In this document: piece after piece, positions 2,112-15,543 of the stretch
Layout: each line of letters begins with the position of its first letter
Position numbering within the stretch: position 1 is the stretch's first letter
Assembly: GCA_016786565.1 (NCBI GenBank)
Contig: JAEUVY010000080.1
Location: forward strand, 62,001-126,000
Origin: Flavipsychrobacter sp.
GTDB lineage: Bacteria; Bacteroidota; Bacteroidia; Chitinophagales; Chitinophagaceae
DNA: 64,000 nucleotides
Direction: 5' to 3'
Made by a program: the position numbers and the translations under genes
The notes under the pieces: generated by a model
The model's input: only the letters and a program-made list of their open reading frames with translations
What the model was told of the DNA's origin: nothing
The model's database searches: none

Positions 2112-2498
2112 TTATGCCGACTCGCAGAACGACAGGATCTTCTCAAACGCACTCTCGTTCTTCACCACATACTCCGACGCTCCCATTTTCTTAGTCTGCA
2201 ATATGATCCAGGTAGCGTCCTGGCTCGATAACATCACGATCTTGACGTGGTCATGCTGCTTTTTTATCTCTTCAAGAATTTGCAATCCGTCGGCAGCATC
2301 CTTCTTCACAGAATTGAGATTGTAGTCGAGAATGATAATGTCAGGTTCCTCGTTCATATGGTCCAGACATTCTTCTCCTGTGTTAAATATCTGCACCTCG
2401 CAATTGGTTTTCCTGGCCAGATAATCTTCCAATGCCATAGACAGCATTTCATCGTCGTCTACAACGAAGATCTTTTTGACTTCATTACTCATACTCAA
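2112..2498 (-). CDS. Single-domain response regulator (REC only)
   Basis: Stand-alone CheY-like receiver of 128 residues with no output domain. The phosphoacceptor is Asp58 in IILDYNLNS, the acidic pocket is Asp14-Asp15, the switch Ser is in VMLSSQD, and the invariant Lys follows in EYVVKN. It probably relays or sinks phosphate, perhaps for the hybrid kinase encoded just downstream on the same strand (inference from adjacency). A second receiver at 15157-15543 is a clear paralogue: both share the unusual block MLSMALEDY right after the acidic pocket and LNSVK after the acceptor Asp. Translation could begin at 2498 or at the second Met (2492). Confidence 0.9.
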   Translation of the reverse strand: MSMSNEVKKIFVVDDDEMLSMALEDYLARKTNCEVQIFNTGEECLDHMNEEPDIIILDYNLNSVKKDAADGLQILEEIKKQHDHVKIVMLSSQDATWIILQTKKMGASEYVVKNESAFEKILSFCESA

Positions 2499-5817: not shown

Positions 5818-6276
5818 ATGAGTACGAACACGAATGCCGATAAGAAGCCATCAGTAGTCAAAGCCATCTTTAACATGCAGTGCCCCAGTTGCCGCAAAGG
5901 GCATATGTACAAGCAAAAAAGCATGTTCCCTCTCAAGACCATGCTTGATATGCCTGAAGAGTGCCCTGTATGCGGCCAGAAAATGGAACCGCAGACAGGT
6001 TTCTATTTCGGAACCGGCTATGTGAGCTATGCGCTTTCTGTCGCACTGTTCGTGTTTAACCTGGTGTGGTACTGGACCTTCTTTGGCATCTCTTACAAAG
6101 ACAACAGCATCTTTTACTACCTCATTACCTCCATCAGCATTGTAGTGCTCATGCAGCCCTACATCATGCGCATATCGCGCGTGCTGTATCTGTACCTGTT
6201 TGTGCGCTACGGGGCACACACCAAAGATCAGCCGGTCGACCACGACCATGCTATTCCTTCGGGTAACAGGGCCTGA
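5818..6276 (+). CDS. DUF983 family zinc-ribbon membrane protein
   Basis: A 152-residue member of DUF983. Two CxxC pairs (Cys22/Cys25 in MQCPSCRKG and Cys49/Cys52 in ECPVCGQ) form a probable zinc ribbon on the cytoplasmic side. The FYFGTGYVSYAL stretch leads into two membrane helices (about 70-90 and 98-118). The molecular role of DUF983 is not established. The tail is His/Asp-rich (DQPVDHDHA). It has its own upstream promoter box and is followed by the broken glycosyltransferase-like gene. Confidence 0.87.
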   Translation: MSTNTNADKKPSVVKAIFNMQCPSCRKGHMYKQKSMFPLKTMLDMPEECPVCGQKMEPQTGFYFGTGYVSYALSVALFVFNLVWYWTFFGISYKDNSIFYYLITSISIVVLMQPYIMRISRVLYLYLFVRYGAHTKDQPVDHDHAIPSGNRA

Positions 6277-6313: not shown

Positions 6314-6595
6314 ATGTACGGTATGCTCCGTCGGTTTGTGGTTGGCATCACGCTGTTATTCAGCGCGTGGTTCCTCGCGTTCTATGGCAAAGAGTCCTAT
6401 CCCTTCAATGGCGATGCCATGGGCTACTACATGTACCTGCCGTCCACGTTCATCTATCACAACCTGAAGGCACTTGACTGGCTGCCCGAAGACCACAAGT
6501 TCGACTACTTTACATTTTTGTTTACTTTTATTTATATCTTTGATATAATTTTTTACCTTAAACAACGATTTTATCATGAAAACACCATTCAGTAG
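6314..6595 (+). pseudogene. N-terminal fragment of a GT-C-type membrane protein gene, broken by insertion/replacement
   Basis: The first about 64 residues are the N-terminus of the same family as the intact gene at 8989: a membrane helix, then NGDAMGYYMYLPSTFIYHNLK, matching WDVSGYYWYLPSILIYHDLK of the homologue, including the conserved Asp of the first external loop (Asp34 here). Homology stops near 6510. From there the frame runs through very AT-rich DNA and ends at 6595 with about 28 unrelated residues. The missing C-terminal part lies 4.3 kb away at 10773-11393. GC content in the preserved part is like that of the flanking genes. The product, if made, is a truncated one-helix peptide and is probably non-functional. 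Confidence 0.8.
6535..6542 (+). promoter_or_regulatory. -7 box for the GH16 gene
   Basis: TATCTTTG matches TAnnTTTG, 33 bases before the GH16 start and about 25 bases inside the AT-rich cassette, so the cassette brings its own promoter. A TTTG at 6517 is closer than the usual -33 spacing. Confidence 0.5.
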
Positions 6596-8966
6596 AGGAG
6601 CATTTTATCTATTATTTATCTCTTCGTTAATAATTAACAACTTCAGTATCCTATATGGCCAGTGTGGAATAGATTACTCGAGATGGCATATTGTATATGA
6701 TGAACAATTTAATGAACCAAACGTTTCCGATTGGCTACAGTTCACTTCTGGAGGGCCTTTCACAAAAGGATGGCGAATCGAGGACACATATACGTGCCAT
6801 TGCGACAACAATCCGAATGGTTGTCCGCCCGCTAATATGATTCAATTCGGCGGCAATGCAATTTCAATGGACTACGCAAACGGATATGCGATATTTGGTA
6901 ACAAAAAGCTTGTAACCCCTACGCCCACGCATGGATGGGAAGCGTCTTTTGTTAGGTCTACCCAAGAAGATATTTACATGGCTGACTTGACTTCGCCGGG
7001 TGAACCTGGTTATATTTTTGGGATGTTCGAAATACGGTGTAAACTACCCAAAAGTCCCGATAATATATTTTCAGCTTTCTGGTTAAGTGGAGCAAATACT
7101 TGGCCGCCAGAAATTGACGTATTTGAACATCGAACCAACTCTGACAGTAATATCCGAAATGAGATTTTTTCTACTGTTCATTGGTCCCCAACGTGGGCCT
7201 GGGGTGACGACAATGGCTGCTCCAATTACTATCGGTTCAATGAGTTGAACTACTTTGACCTTTTCAACAACTTTCATACATATACCGCTGTATGGACTCC
7301 CACACAAATTACTTGGTTTTTTGATGGCAAAGAATTGAAAACAGATGCCATTGCATCTCACTTACCTGGATTTTTTGATCCAACACCATCGTCGGGAGAC
7401 GCATATTATAGAGATTTTTTCCTTCATAACAAGATGCAAATGGTTATCAATTGTATAACCCAAAACTGCGAGGTATCTGAACCCCTTGATGGCTTGGTTG
7501 TTGACTATGTCCGTGTATACAAACCCTTAGATAACAGAACCAAATTCCCCACGGAAACATACGAAGACTATTATAATTACCTTTCAACAATTTACAGTAC
7601 CGCTGTATCGTCATACAAAACCACTCATGATTGGACAAGAAATCTAATAGACAGCACTGGGTTTGCACCTGTACAGATTCACAGTAATTTGAACGGATAT
7701 CAGGGTGGAGGTAAATATACGTATATAGGTAATTATAATTTACTTTGGAGTACCTATTATGGCCCTGGAGGGACTTTTTATAGTGTCCCAGTTGACTGGG
7801 CTCATGATGCCGATGGAGACTTATCCCTGTCAAACGACGGATACAGAACGTGGTACCGAAAAGGATCAAATATTTGGTATGAGCAAGGTGGCATTTTTAC
7901 AATGATACCTACTGTAACCAATGCAATTGGCGGCACTAGATATTCAAATATAAAAGCTATTAATAGTGGGACCGCAATCGCATATGTCGGGGCAGCGCCT
8001 AGCGGTCTTGGATACGGTGTATATGCAAGCGTAATGACTAGCCCTGGATATTGGGTCACAACTCCGATTTCTCCAACATTCCCCTCAGCCCCCAGCAACA
8101 TCATATACAACCAGACACAAACACAAATCTTTTATATAGTTAATAATAAATTATGGGCTTCGTACGACTCACCGACGGCGCCAGGCTGGGTAACTTCCCA
8201 AATTAGTGGACCATTTGATATGGTACTTCCGGGCATCGCATTTGGAAAATCACCTAATGGTCAAGATGCGGTTTTCTTTAGAACAAGCGGAAACAAACTA
8301 TACTTTTATGAGTGGAATCCTACCAGTTCAAGTTTCACATCGCAACAACCCTTTTTAGCTAAAACATCTTGGAGCTCAACTCCGGTTGTTGTCAATAATG
8401 TGTCGGATAATAATATTATTGTTGGTATCGATCCAGCAAATCAGCAATATTATTATGTTGGGACTGATCTTCGTCCATATTATATTTCCTACGACGGTAC
8501 TGGGTGGGGAACTAGCTATCTTGATTTAGATTTGCCAAACGTATTAGGCGATTTTCAATTGGTAAAAATGGGCTATCCAATCGGAGACTTCCATCTCGCC
8601 TATACAAGCACAAATAATTTTATCAGAACACTAAAATGGCAGAGTTGCGAAAACTTAAACCCTCCTTGCGACCAAGTCAGATATCAAAAACCCTCCACCA
8701 TACGGTTGACATCCCCCGACTCTTCTGAAATGGAAAACAATTTTCGAATATTCCCGAACCCATCAAGTGGGAAATTTTGGATTGAGATACCCTCTAACAA
8801 CTCTGTTGTTTCAATTAGTACTATTGTGGGCCAAATTCTAGAGGCCGATTACAAAATAAACGATGGGATGTTAGCTTTCGATATCTCATCATTCCCCTCT
8901 GGAGTCTATTTTGTTAACGTTTCTACTGAAACAAACTCAAAAACATTAAAATTAATAAAATATTAA
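6576..8966 (+). CDS. Secreted glycoside hydrolase family 16 protein with T9SS sorting domain
   Basis: A 796-residue exported glycosidase. A signal peptide (about 1-29) is followed by a GH16 jelly-roll domain (about 35-315) with the catalytic box EIDVFE: Glu179 nucleophile, Asp181, Glu184 acid/base. GH16 enzymes cut beta-1,3/1,4-glucans or galactans; the exact substrate cannot be read from sequence. Residues about 370-690 contain repeated Trp/Tyr-rich strands (IWYEQGG, KLWASYD, KLYFYEW), suggesting a beta-propeller or lectin-like module. The C-terminus (about 718-796, FRIFPNPSSGKF to the end) is a T9SS type A sorting domain. It is strongly AT-rich compared with the flanks and sits 22 bases before the GT-C homologue, so it probably arrived with it. 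Confidence 0.9.
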   Translation: MKTPFSRGAFYLLFISSLIINNFSILYGQCGIDYSRWHIVYDEQFNEPNVSDWLQFTSGGPFTKGWRIEDTYTCHCDNNPNGCPPANMIQFGGNAISMDYANGYAIFGNKKLVTPTPTHGWEASFVRSTQEDIYMADLTSPGEPGYIFGMFEIRCKLPKSPDNIFSAFWLSGANTWPPEIDVFEHRTNSDSNIRNEIFSTVHWSPTWAWGDDNGCSNYYRFNELNYFDLFNNFHTYTAVWTPTQITWFFDGKELKTDAIASHLPGFFDPTPSSGDAYYRDFFLHNKMQMVINCITQNCEVSEPLDGLVVDYVRVYKPLDNRTKFPTETYEDYYNYLSTIYSTAVSSYKTTHDWTRNLIDSTGFAPVQIHSNLNGYQGGGKYTYIGNYNLLWSTYYGPGGTFYSVPVDWAHDADGDLSLSNDGYRTWYRKGSNIWYEQGGIFTMIPTVTNAIGGTRYSNIKAINSGTAIAYVGAAPSGLGYGVYASVMTSPGYWVTTPISPTFPSAPSNIIYNQTQTQIFYIVNNKLWASYDSPTAPGWVTSQISGPFDMVLPGIAFGKSPNGQDAVFFRTSGNKLYFYEWNPTSSSFTSQQPFLAKTSWSSTPVVVNNVSDNNIIVGIDPANQQYYYVGTDLRPYYISYDGTGWGTSYLDLDLPNVLGDFQLVKMGYPIGDFHLAYTSTNNFIRTLKWQSCENLNPPCDQVRYQKPSTIRLTSPDSSEMENNFRIFPNPSSGKFWIEIPSNNSVVSISTIVGQILEADYKINDGMLAFDISSFPSGVYFVNVSTETNSKTLKLIKY

Positions 8967-8988
8967 TAGCTTTTTTTACCGAGTTAGA

Positions 8989-10773
8989 ATGTACTCAAGA
9001 ATCTCCCTTTTCCTCTGTTCAGTTGTTATTGTCGCAGTTTCCTTTCTGTATTACCCTCGATTTACCAAATCGACTACGGAATCGGTTATCAGTTGGGATG
9101 TATCTGGATATTATTGGTATCTGCCCTCAATACTAATTTATCATGATTTAAAGAAACAAAGTTTCAAAGACGAAATTCTACAAAAATATAAACCAACAAA
9201 CCTTGACTTCCAGCAGGGAGTGCTACTTCCTAATGGCAACTATGTAATGAAATACTCGGCAGGGATGTCAATAATGTATCTGCCTTTTTTTCTAACAGCT
9301 AACTGTATTGCAAAACCACTGGGATATCCTAATGACGGTTTTTCAAAACCCTATCAAGTATCCATTCAGATCGGAGGGGTGTTAATTTCTATTTTGGGTC
9401 TTTGGACGCTACGGCGTTTACTAATGTTCTATTTTGCGGACCGTGTTATTGCTATTTGTCTTTTCTTAATTGCCTGTGGAACAAATTATTTAAACTACGC
9501 TGCAATTGACTCAGGTATGTCGCACACATGGCTTTTTACTTTGTATTCTCTATTACTGTATTTTACAATTAGATATTACAGAGAAAGCCGGCTAATATTT
9601 GCGGTACTAATTGGGTTATTGGTAGGCTTGCTAACGATTACACGCCCAACAGAGATTATTTCCTGTCTTATTCCAGTATTGTGGCCCCTAAACAGATTGA
9701 GCAAGTCTTCAATCCGTCAACATTTGTCCTTTTTATTTGAAAATAGATTTGGCATTTTCATTTCGTTGTTCGCAGCAGTAGCCGTAATGTCTATTCAACT
9801 TATATATTGGAAGTACGTTACAGGCGAGTGGCTATTTTACAGTTACGGGTCGCAAGGTTTCTACTGGACAAATCCATATTTGGTGAAGTACAGTCTGAAC
9901 TATCGATGTGGTTGGCTGGTATATTCGCCAATGATGTCATTGGCCGTTATTGCTATTCTTCCTTTCATTTTGTGGGGCCGTAATCGGGTTGCCATAATAT
10001 CATTTCTATTACTGTTCTATTACCTTGTGAGTGCATGGGACATCTGGTGGTATGGCGGAAGAGCAATGATTCAAAGCTACCCTATTTTTGCATTTCCACT
10101 TGCAACAATGGTGCATAGTATCACCAAACATAGAATTGTGAAACTTACATTCAATTCACTTGTTTTTGTTTTACTCTACTACAATACTTGGGTTTTAATC
10201 CAATACCACACAGGGGGACTGTATGACGACAATACCATGTCAAAAGAATTTTATTGGCATGCTATTGGTAGGTGGCGGGTGTCTGAGCAATCATTTAGTT
10301 TGCTTGATTGTCCTGATTTTTACCAAAAAAGGACTGGTGGCGAAAAAGTACTACTCCAAGAAAATTTTGACACATGTAGTAGTTGCCCACTGTTGCCGAT
10401 GGCCGGGAAACAAAAGAGGATGATGGTTATAGGCAGCAAAATTAATGGAGCCACTCCATATTATGTTATACCAATCCCGTCAAAGGATTATAATTGGCTC
10501 AGAGCATACATAAACTGTAGTTTTTCCACAAAAGAAGTCGACATATGGAAAATGTCAAAAATGTGCATTCGAGTCCTAGAGAAAGGTCATATTATTAAAG
10601 ACAATGTTTTTAGATTTCCCAGAATAATGAATGAGAATATCTCAAAAACGGTCTATGTTGACATGAAATTACCTTCAACAAAATTTGATCAGATTTTATT
10701 TGTTGTATGGAATGACCAAAGTGAAAAAGAAGTTTACATCAGCGACATAAAGGTGACCACATTTCATGATTAA
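8989..10773 (+). CDS. GT-C-like multi-pass membrane protein (probable glycosyltransferase), foreign copy
   Basis: A 594-residue integral membrane protein with about ten or more helices up to residue 400 and a soluble C-terminal domain. The pattern is that of GT-C/ArnT-PMT-like enzymes, which move sugars from polyprenyl-phosphate donors on the outer face of the inner membrane. It has an acidic first loop (Asp37 in SWDVSGYYWYLPS), a Gly-Met-Ser loop near 175 and a TRPTE motif near 220. Donor and acceptor are unknown. It is the intact counterpart of the fragments at 6314 and 10773. AT-rich base use separates it from the surrounding genome. Its TAA stop overlaps by one base the ATG that opens the native C-terminal fragment. 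Confidence 0.82.
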   Translation: MYSRISLFLCSVVIVAVSFLYYPRFTKSTTESVISWDVSGYYWYLPSILIYHDLKKQSFKDEILQKYKPTNLDFQQGVLLPNGNYVMKYSAGMSIMYLPFFLTANCIAKPLGYPNDGFSKPYQVSIQIGGVLISILGLWTLRRLLMFYFADRVIAICLFLIACGTNYLNYAAIDSGMSHTWLFTLYSLLLYFTIRYYRESRLIFAVLIGLLVGLLTITRPTEIISCLIPVLWPLNRLSKSSIRQHLSFLFENRFGIFISLFAAVAVMSIQLIYWKYVTGEWLFYSYGSQGFYWTNPYLVKYSLNYRCGWLVYSPMMSLAVIAILPFILWGRNRVAIISFLLLFYYLVSAWDIWWYGGRAMIQSYPIFAFPLATMVHSITKHRIVKLTFNSLVFVLLYYNTWVLIQYHTGGLYDDNTMSKEFYWHAIGRWRVSEQSFSLLDCPDFYQKRTGGEKVLLQENFDTCSSCPLLPMAGKQKRMMVIGSKINGATPYYVIPIPSKDYNWLRAYINCSFSTKEVDIWKMSKMCIRVLEKGHIIKDNVFRFPRIMNENISKTVYVDMKLPSTKFDQILFVVWNDQSEKEVYISDIKVTTFHD

Positions 10774-11393
10774 TGCGTAGAACGTTCAGCGAAGAGTCTA
10801 ATGCTGCGTACAACCTCAACATGCTCTTCCGCACCGGCGCCACCTATGCCGACCTGGTGATGATGGATGTGCAGGAAGTGCAGCCCTCTGAAAGCCAACT
10901 GCAAAAGGTAGCTACCCTTGCCTGTGTGACCCACGAAGACAGCAACGACCACCACATACCCGACCCCACGGGGGAGAGCCGTTTTGTGTTCCGCATGCCG
11001 GCAGGCGAAGAGTACTACCGCGAGCAGATAAAGGTGCCCTATAGCAAGGCTGTCTTTGGCAATGCGCGCTACATCAAATGCAGTGGCCGCTTTGCATGCC
11101 CGCAGCACTATACTTACTACAAACACCTGCTGACGCTGGACATTACCACCCGCGACAAACGACCGCTGTGGTGGGGCTGCCGCATAGACAACAAAATAGG
11201 TCTTACCGATGCGGACGCACCCCTCAGCGAATTCCACATTTACCACTGCGACCTGAACAAGTGGGGCAGGATATGGTTTTATGTGCCCATACCGGCCGGC
11301 CTTGAAGAAGGCGATCAAGTGCGGCTGGATATCTGGAACATCGGCTGGCAAGAAATGCTGGTGGACGATATCTGTCTTGAGTTATATCGCTGA
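10773..11393 (+). pseudogene. C-terminal fragment of the native GT-C-type gene
   Basis: 206 residues without signal peptide or membrane helix. They correspond to the soluble C-terminal domain of the GT-C-like protein: ARYIKCSGRFACP aligns with LRAYINCSFSTKE of the intact gene, and both end in a short strand after a WN or DI segment (VDDICLELYR; ISDIKVTTF). Composition matches the native genome, unlike the DNA directly upstream. The ATG at 10773 overlaps the stop of the foreign gene (TAATG), so coupled translation is possible, but the isolated domain would remain in the cytoplasm. I regard it as the remnant of the gene whose N-terminus is at 6314. Confidence 0.75.
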
Positions 11394-11394
11394 T

Positions 11395-11955
11395 CTATCG
11401 CTCGGCCATCTTGTTGCGGGCTGTTATGCACCACAGCAATTCGTTGACAAAGTTGGCCGCACGCCGCTCGATAGTGGCCTTGTCGGCAGGTGCGCCGTTC
11501 TCGTCGAAAGTCTCACTCACCCTGGGTACGGGGAACATAGCAGGCACCGTCCAGGCGCGCATCTTCCATAGCGTGAATTGTAGCGAGGTGATGACCTGTG
11601 TGCCGCCAAACACACCATCAGATACTGTGGCGATGGCCACCGGCTTGCGGTGCCACTCGTCATACAGCAGGTCCACCACATTCTTCAAGGCTGCAGGGTA
11701 GCCGCCATTGTATTCGGGTGTTACGATAATGACGCCATCGGCGGCCGACACCTTGCCGGCAAACTGCATCACCTTTGTGGAAGGCGTGGCCTGATACTTG
11801 AGTCGCTCTTCAAACAAAGGAAAGCGATATTCATTGAGGTCCAGTATCTCGGCACCCAGTTGTTGCTGCTCCAGATACTGTTTCAGGAACAGGGCCACGC
11901 GGTGGCTGTTGCGCCCTGTGCGCACACTGGCTGATATGATCGCTATGTTTGGCAT
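11395..11955 (-). CDS. NADPH-dependent FMN reductase-like flavoprotein
   Basis: Flavodoxin-fold NAD(P)H:FMN/quinone reductase, 186 residues, cytoplasmic. The N-terminal phosphate-binding loop reads SASVRTGRNSHRVA (about 8-21). The family TPEYNGGYPAALKN signature (about 79-92) binds the flavin, and SDGVFGGTQ follows near residue 112. Such enzymes reduce flavins, quinones or azo compounds; the physiological substrate is unknown. It is convergent with the native GT-C fragment, whose stop lies 1 base away. Confidence 0.9.
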   Translation of the reverse strand: MPNIAIISASVRTGRNSHRVALFLKQYLEQQQLGAEILDLNEYRFPLFEERLKYQATPSTKVMQFAGKVSAADGVIIVTPEYNGGYPAALKNVVDLLYDEWHRKPVAIATVSDGVFGGTQVITSLQFTLWKMRAWTVPAMFPVPRVSETFDENGAPADKATIERRAANFVNELLWCITARNKMAER

Positions 11956-15124: not shown

Positions 15125-15132
15125 TAGCTTTG
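15125..15132 (+). promoter_or_regulatory. -7 box for the orphan response regulator
   Basis: TAGCTTTG fits TAnnTTTG and lies 24 bases before the chosen ATG at 15157. This argues against the upstream in-frame start at 15130, which overlaps the box. Confidence 0.55.
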
Positions 15133-15156
15133 CAGTACAGGACTCTCCCGGCAAAA

Positions 15157-15543
15157 ATGTTCAATAAGATATCAGGCACGGTATTTATAGTAGACGACAA
15201 TGACATGTTGTCTATGGCGCTTGAAGACTACATAACCGAAAAGACGCCACACAAGGTGCGTGTGTTTGCCACCGGCGAAGACTGCATCCGCCATCTGGAC
15301 GAAGGGCCGGATGTGGTGATACTGGATTACTACCTGAACTCGGTGAAACACACGGCCGCAGACGGATCTAAGATACTGCAGGCCATCAAGCGGTTCAACC
15401 CCGGCATCCACGTCATCATGCTATCGGGGCAGGATGCCTATGGCGCGGCACTGCAAACGATAATGAAGGGAGCCGACAGCTACGTGATCAAAGACTCTGA
15501 CGCGTTCACCAAGGTGTTGAAGATACTGGAAGGGCTGCGGTAG
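15157..15543 (+). CDS. Single-domain response regulator, paralogue of the 2112-2498 gene
   Basis: A 128-residue stand-alone receiver with phosphoacceptor Asp57 in VVILDYYLNSVK, acidic pocket Asp13-Asp14, Ser in VIMLSGQD and Lys in SYVIKD. There is no output domain. About half of its residues match the receiver at 2112-2498, with the same MLSMALEDY block and the same length, so the two arose by duplication. No kinase is nearby; the hybrid kinase 13 kb away is one candidate. The start at 15157 is chosen because a promoter box lies between it and the next in-frame start upstream. Confidence 0.9.
   Translation: MFNKISGTVFIVDDNDMLSMALEDYITEKTPHKVRVFATGEDCIRHLDEGPDVVILDYYLNSVKHTAADGSKILQAIKRFNPGIHVIMLSGQDAYGAALQTIMKGADSYVIKDSDAFTKVLKILEGLR

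Follow-up and report, generated by a model that had tools for sequence, protein, structure and literature searches.

In-place replacement of part of a resident GT-C-like gene by a GH16 and GT-C-like gene pair in Flavipsychrobacter

The closest described counterpart of the locus analysed here is found among the type VI secretion system (T6SS) effector modules of Vibrio cholerae, where imported modules are proposed to have displaced resident genes through homology-facilitated illegitimate recombination and to have left remnants of them (PMC5361080). A comparable arrangement occurs in a 64,000-nucleotide stretch of a Flavipsychrobacter sp. genome (the window), in which an incoming module has displaced part of a resident gene, remnants of the old gene stay in place and no mobile-element enzymes are seen. 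It differs from the V. cholerae modules in that a homologous anchor arm is hypothetical, as is functional equivalence of the incoming transferase with the old gene. The two products of the module have their own nearest relatives, in the GH16 laminarinases (beta-1,3-glucanases) and in GT-C membrane glycosyltransferases (GTs) of the PMT_2 type (PF13231). Two reports on other Bacteroidota describe type IX secretion cargo as glycosylated and tethered to the cell surface by a glycolipid (PMC7468200, PMC13086638), which makes a cargo-modifying GT conceivable.

The resident gene survives as two pieces. Its N-terminal remnant, on the forward strand at 6314-6508, spans 65 codons and is 95% identical in amino acids over 65 residues to residues 1-65 of a GT-C-like protein in G022, the closest relative at this locus among the 34 genomes of the genus examined besides the source. 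The C-terminal remnant (10773-11393, forward strand; native codons from about 10785) matches the C-terminus of the same protein from about 10782, with 87% amino acid identity over 202 residues and no stop codons. In G022 this protein is encoded by a single uninterrupted ORF of 617 amino acids (L079 6611-8464), to which the two pieces correspond in order and on one strand, as the earlier note had proposed when it read them as the ends of one native gene and suggested looking for an intact copy in close relatives. DNA homology to G022 ends at 6508 and picks up again at about 10782, such that 4275 bp in the window stand against 1049 bp in G022 (L079 bases 6806-7854). These missing bases make up 57% of the 1854-bp resident gene, in keeping with the earlier estimate that about half of it was lost. 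On either side of the insert the sequence is collinear with that of G022 (83% DNA identity); the genes in common are, on the left, those for a DsbD-like protein, an Asp/Arg hydroxylase, DUF3050 and DUF983 (5818-6276, forward strand; 93%) and, on the right, that for an FMN reductase (11395-11955, reverse strand; 97%). The direction of change is clear, since the window holds two incomplete pieces whereas the resident subfamily is represented by full-length members in 11 of the 34 other genomes (G022 and 10 more).

The insert itself (6509-10783, 4275 bp; right edge accurate to 2-3 bp) has no homology to G022 at this position and is foreign in composition. Its GC content is 38.6%; that of the window is 49.0%, and that of the lost segment of the resident gene, as preserved in G022, is 53.8%. 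Every sampled 1-kb stretch of the window with a GC content below 42% overlaps it. Codon use, which the earlier note had likewise proposed to measure, gives the same picture: the two genes of the insert score lowest of the 36 window ORFs of at least 200 amino acids, far below the third. With an intact resident gene in a close relative and a foreign insert in its place, horizontal in-place gene replacement is confirmed and well resolved at this locus. The earlier view that transposases and terminal repeats are lacking holds: neither a transposase nor a tRNA was found at the insert among the window ORFs and sequence, no target duplication was seen at the junctions and no convincing terminal repeats were found, as an inverted pair (I3) that lies near both ends is not at the ends and is no better than internal pairs. 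No donor DNA was found for the insert. A possible promoter at 6521-6549 (forward strand), recognised by pattern match only, comprises TTTACT-17-TATAAT, with TATCTTTG as a -7-like motif at 6536-6543; the full Bacteroidetes -33/-7 pattern has no match upstream of the first gene.

That first gene (6576-8966, forward strand) encodes a protein of 796 amino acids with a signal peptide-like start, a laminarinase-like GH16 domain (Pfam PF00722, 5.5e-14), a beta-rich region and a type IX secretion tail (Por_Secre_tail PF18962, 7.4e-11), bearing out the earlier identification of a GH16 glycosidase. The catalytic ExDxxE motif is intact (E179, D181 and E184), and in comparisons with solved structures the domain is closest to laminarinases and beta-1,3-glucanases. 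Unlike in these, the domain of the window protein is fused to the beta-rich region and secretion tail, and its laminarinase-like activity is predicted. With a C-terminal sorting domain on the protein and a PorU sortase encoded in the same genome, it has the features of type IX cargo. The GH16 gene is absent from all 34 other genomes of the genus examined, and its full architecture is rare. Viral contigs contain no relatives of either the GH16 or the GT family, and phage carriage of the insert was rejected on this ground.

The second gene (GTins; 8989-10773, forward strand) encodes a predicted GT-C-like membrane glycosyltransferase of 594 amino acids, about 30% identical to the resident GT. In two trees, with 76 and 38 members of the family, the resident subfamily is set apart by a long branch, and GTins falls into a uvrC-type subfamily that includes a copy beside uvrC in the same genome; there it groups, on a long branch, with copies from three other genomes of the genus (G010, G014 and G007; SH-aLRT 97). 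The GT-C-like assignment of the family is supported indirectly. GTins has no match in Pfam and the G022 resident has only a non-significant one (E 0.98); however, the PMT_2 cut-off of 26.1 bits is exceeded by the resident's orthologue in G009 (54% identical; 30.6 bits), which points to GT-C membership. As in PMT_2-type transferases, an Asp close to the N-terminus is invariant in the family. GTins differs from that type in the lack of a model match and in a C-terminal extension with beta strands predicted by a low-confidence model. AlphaFold models of both GTins and the GH16 protein, built from three-sequence alignments, are poor (mean pLDDT about 40). Other GT genes of the family also lie close to genes for type IX-tailed proteins: in G014 and G007 (L174 1174-3141; L175 3632-5599), the GTs nearest to GTins lie downstream, by about 135 bp, of genes whose type IX-tailed products contain an N-glycanase_C (PNGase F C-terminal) domain, and in the source genome another member with a GC content of 31% is downstream of a type IX-tailed NHL-repeat protein (G000:C129, L087, 4468-7386). 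A general link between the GT family and type IX cargo genes is not claimed, given that such genes are directly upstream on the same strand of 6 of 72 GT genes compared with 11 of 339 other positions (p 0.09), and of 3 of 92 compared with 8 of 430 in a rerun with more loci and a cruder domain filter (p 0.42).

We consider it probable, at roughly 0.7, that a GH16–GT-C module was imported and joined by illegitimate, perhaps homology-assisted, recombination, with deletion of a dispensable resident gene. The two-gene module, with GH16 leading, would have been taken up from an AT-richer donor, presumably as linear DNA, and joined inside the resident GT-C gene in a way that would delete the middle 1049 bp and leave the ends as remnants. 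The N-terminal remnant shares 29 bp at 93% identity with the C35 paralogue elsewhere in the genome. This motif stops some 70 bp short of the left junction, and a paralogue-like N-terminal motif on the donor DNA might have provided an anchor at that distance. DNA similarity between GTins and the N-terminal remnant is not significant, and there is thus no sign that GTins itself was the anchor. The presence of an intact resident subfamily in just 11 of the 34 other genomes means that loss of the gene need not be compensated. In function, the GH16 enzyme would leave the cell through the type IX system, stay attached to the cell surface and cleave a glucan with beta-1,3- or mixed linkages, or a comparable glycan. 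Its partner may be a transferase that spans the inner membrane several times and adds a sugar to an acceptor in the periplasm or at the surface, which could be the secreted enzyme itself or its surface anchor. The event is clear but a fairly ordinary horizontal gene replacement; its value as a case lies in how well the replacement is resolved, with the empty site identified.

The same pairing recurs in other genera. G151 has a GH16 gene followed 13 bp on by a GT gene on the same strand, with a second GT gene divergently upstream, and in G282, from another genus, a GH16 gene (assigned by Pfam and compared with that of the window) is likewise followed by a GT gene on the same strand. In a third genus, represented by G138, a GH16 gene lies beside a divergent N-terminal GT relic (L120, G138:C471, 4817-4918) that stops after the conserved GYYWYLP motif, about 46 codons in. 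A scan of the genomes of 84,980 species with a GH16 alignment returned, besides G138 and G151, matches that cover the GH16 region only and have no nearby GT of the family, and literature searches recovered no description of a GH16–GT pair. Placement of the GH16-linked GTs of the window, G151 and G282 in one clade is rejected (AU p 1.9e-5), and the pairing has therefore formed or been renewed more than once. Seen in several genera, the pairing of a GH16 enzyme secreted by the type IX route and a membrane transferase of GT-C-like type provides a testable functional link for two uncharacterised families. GT genes are also cut where GH16 is lacking. One example is G008, where a resident-type GT relic (L177, G008:C408, 4922-5420) consists of the N-terminal 60 or so codons joined to about the last 50; the part between them is gone, and an intact copy follows immediately downstream. 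Loss of GT family members by truncation has occurred at more than one site.

These loci raise an alternative that we regard as unlikely, namely that the GH16–GT cassette prefers to land within GT-C genes of this family, or next to them, through shared N-terminal DNA motifs or a targeting mechanism. Consistent with it, GH16 is positioned between a GT remnant and a GT in the window, between two GTs in G151, beside a cut GT in G138 and beside a GT in G282, the associated GTs are not one clade, and the G008 relic is cut near the same N-terminal point. However, the cases number only four, that of G282 was found by looking from the GT side, a related GH16 gene in G035 has no adjacent GT, no targeting element was found and functional co-selection accounts for the adjacency equally well. 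A broader form is similarly doubtful: that GH16-propeller genes have time and again become established within or next to GT-C family members that are themselves truncated near one shared N-terminal motif, the loci acting as landing or turnover points for pairs of secreted enzyme and transferase independently of a mobile-element enzyme, and the GT being a dedicated modifier of the neighbouring secreted enzyme.

Somewhat less probable still is allelic replacement, in which the incoming GT would be a donor allele of the resident, exchanged together with the neighbouring GH16 gene to switch a surface glycan. The earlier note favoured this reading, describing a complete divergent homologue of the same gene and suggesting serotype-like switching. 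The insert does place one member of the GT superfamily within the gene of another, and as only about 0.2% of the genome consists of such GT-C genes (estimated from copies), landing in one by chance would be unlikely. The description stands insofar as GTins appears to be a complete GT-C-like protein. It fails on identity with the resident gene, as the low identity between the two and the position of GTins in the trees indicate a different paralogue from an anciently split subfamily, with no allele exchanged. The junctions also fall outside GTins, leaving no place for a GT–GT crossover, and the locus has no glycan gene cluster: the neighbours of the insert are genes for DUF983, FMN reductase, DUF3050, Asp/Arg hydroxylase and a DEAD-box helicase, with no capsule or O-antigen cluster among them, which leaves serotype-like switching unsupported. 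The insertion site is instead a variable gap between core genes. DUF983 and rplI are about 0.8 kb apart in G002 compared with 9.3 kb in the window, and to the right of the FMN reductase gene G022 has a type I restriction-modification system (L079 9455-13881; named from sequence) where the window has other genes. An assembly chimera, which the 133 contigs of the 3.8-Mb genome and the sharply deviating composition of the insert might suggest, is very improbable, as the sequence on both sides of the insert runs collinear with G022 within a 204-kb contig (contig 92) with a clean 1049-bp deletion between them, and the GH16–GT order recurs in the unrelated assemblies G151 and G282.

The C-terminal remnant may still be translated as a soluble leftover, given that its ATG overlaps the GTins stop codon (TAATG). 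The remnant is in frame, and its dN/dS of 0.086 relative to G022 is within the range of neighbouring genes (0.025-0.094). Lineage-specific changes in the remnants, counted with three outgroups, number 11 vs 5, 7 vs 4 and 6 vs 5, which is not a clear skew. Relaxed selection on the remnants was rejected on these two grounds; either the event is recent or the fragment is still constrained.

In the window, genes for two related response-regulator receiver proteins (2112-2498, reverse strand; 15130-15543, forward strand) stand on either side of the variable region. In G030 and G009 (L088 1665-11373; L081 4991-8331), near-identical DUF4402 genes of 174 amino acids recur on either side of the resident-type GT gene, interspersed with other genes. 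One resident-type and two uvrC-type GT genes form a tandem array at L217 (G153:C2, 4129-9737).
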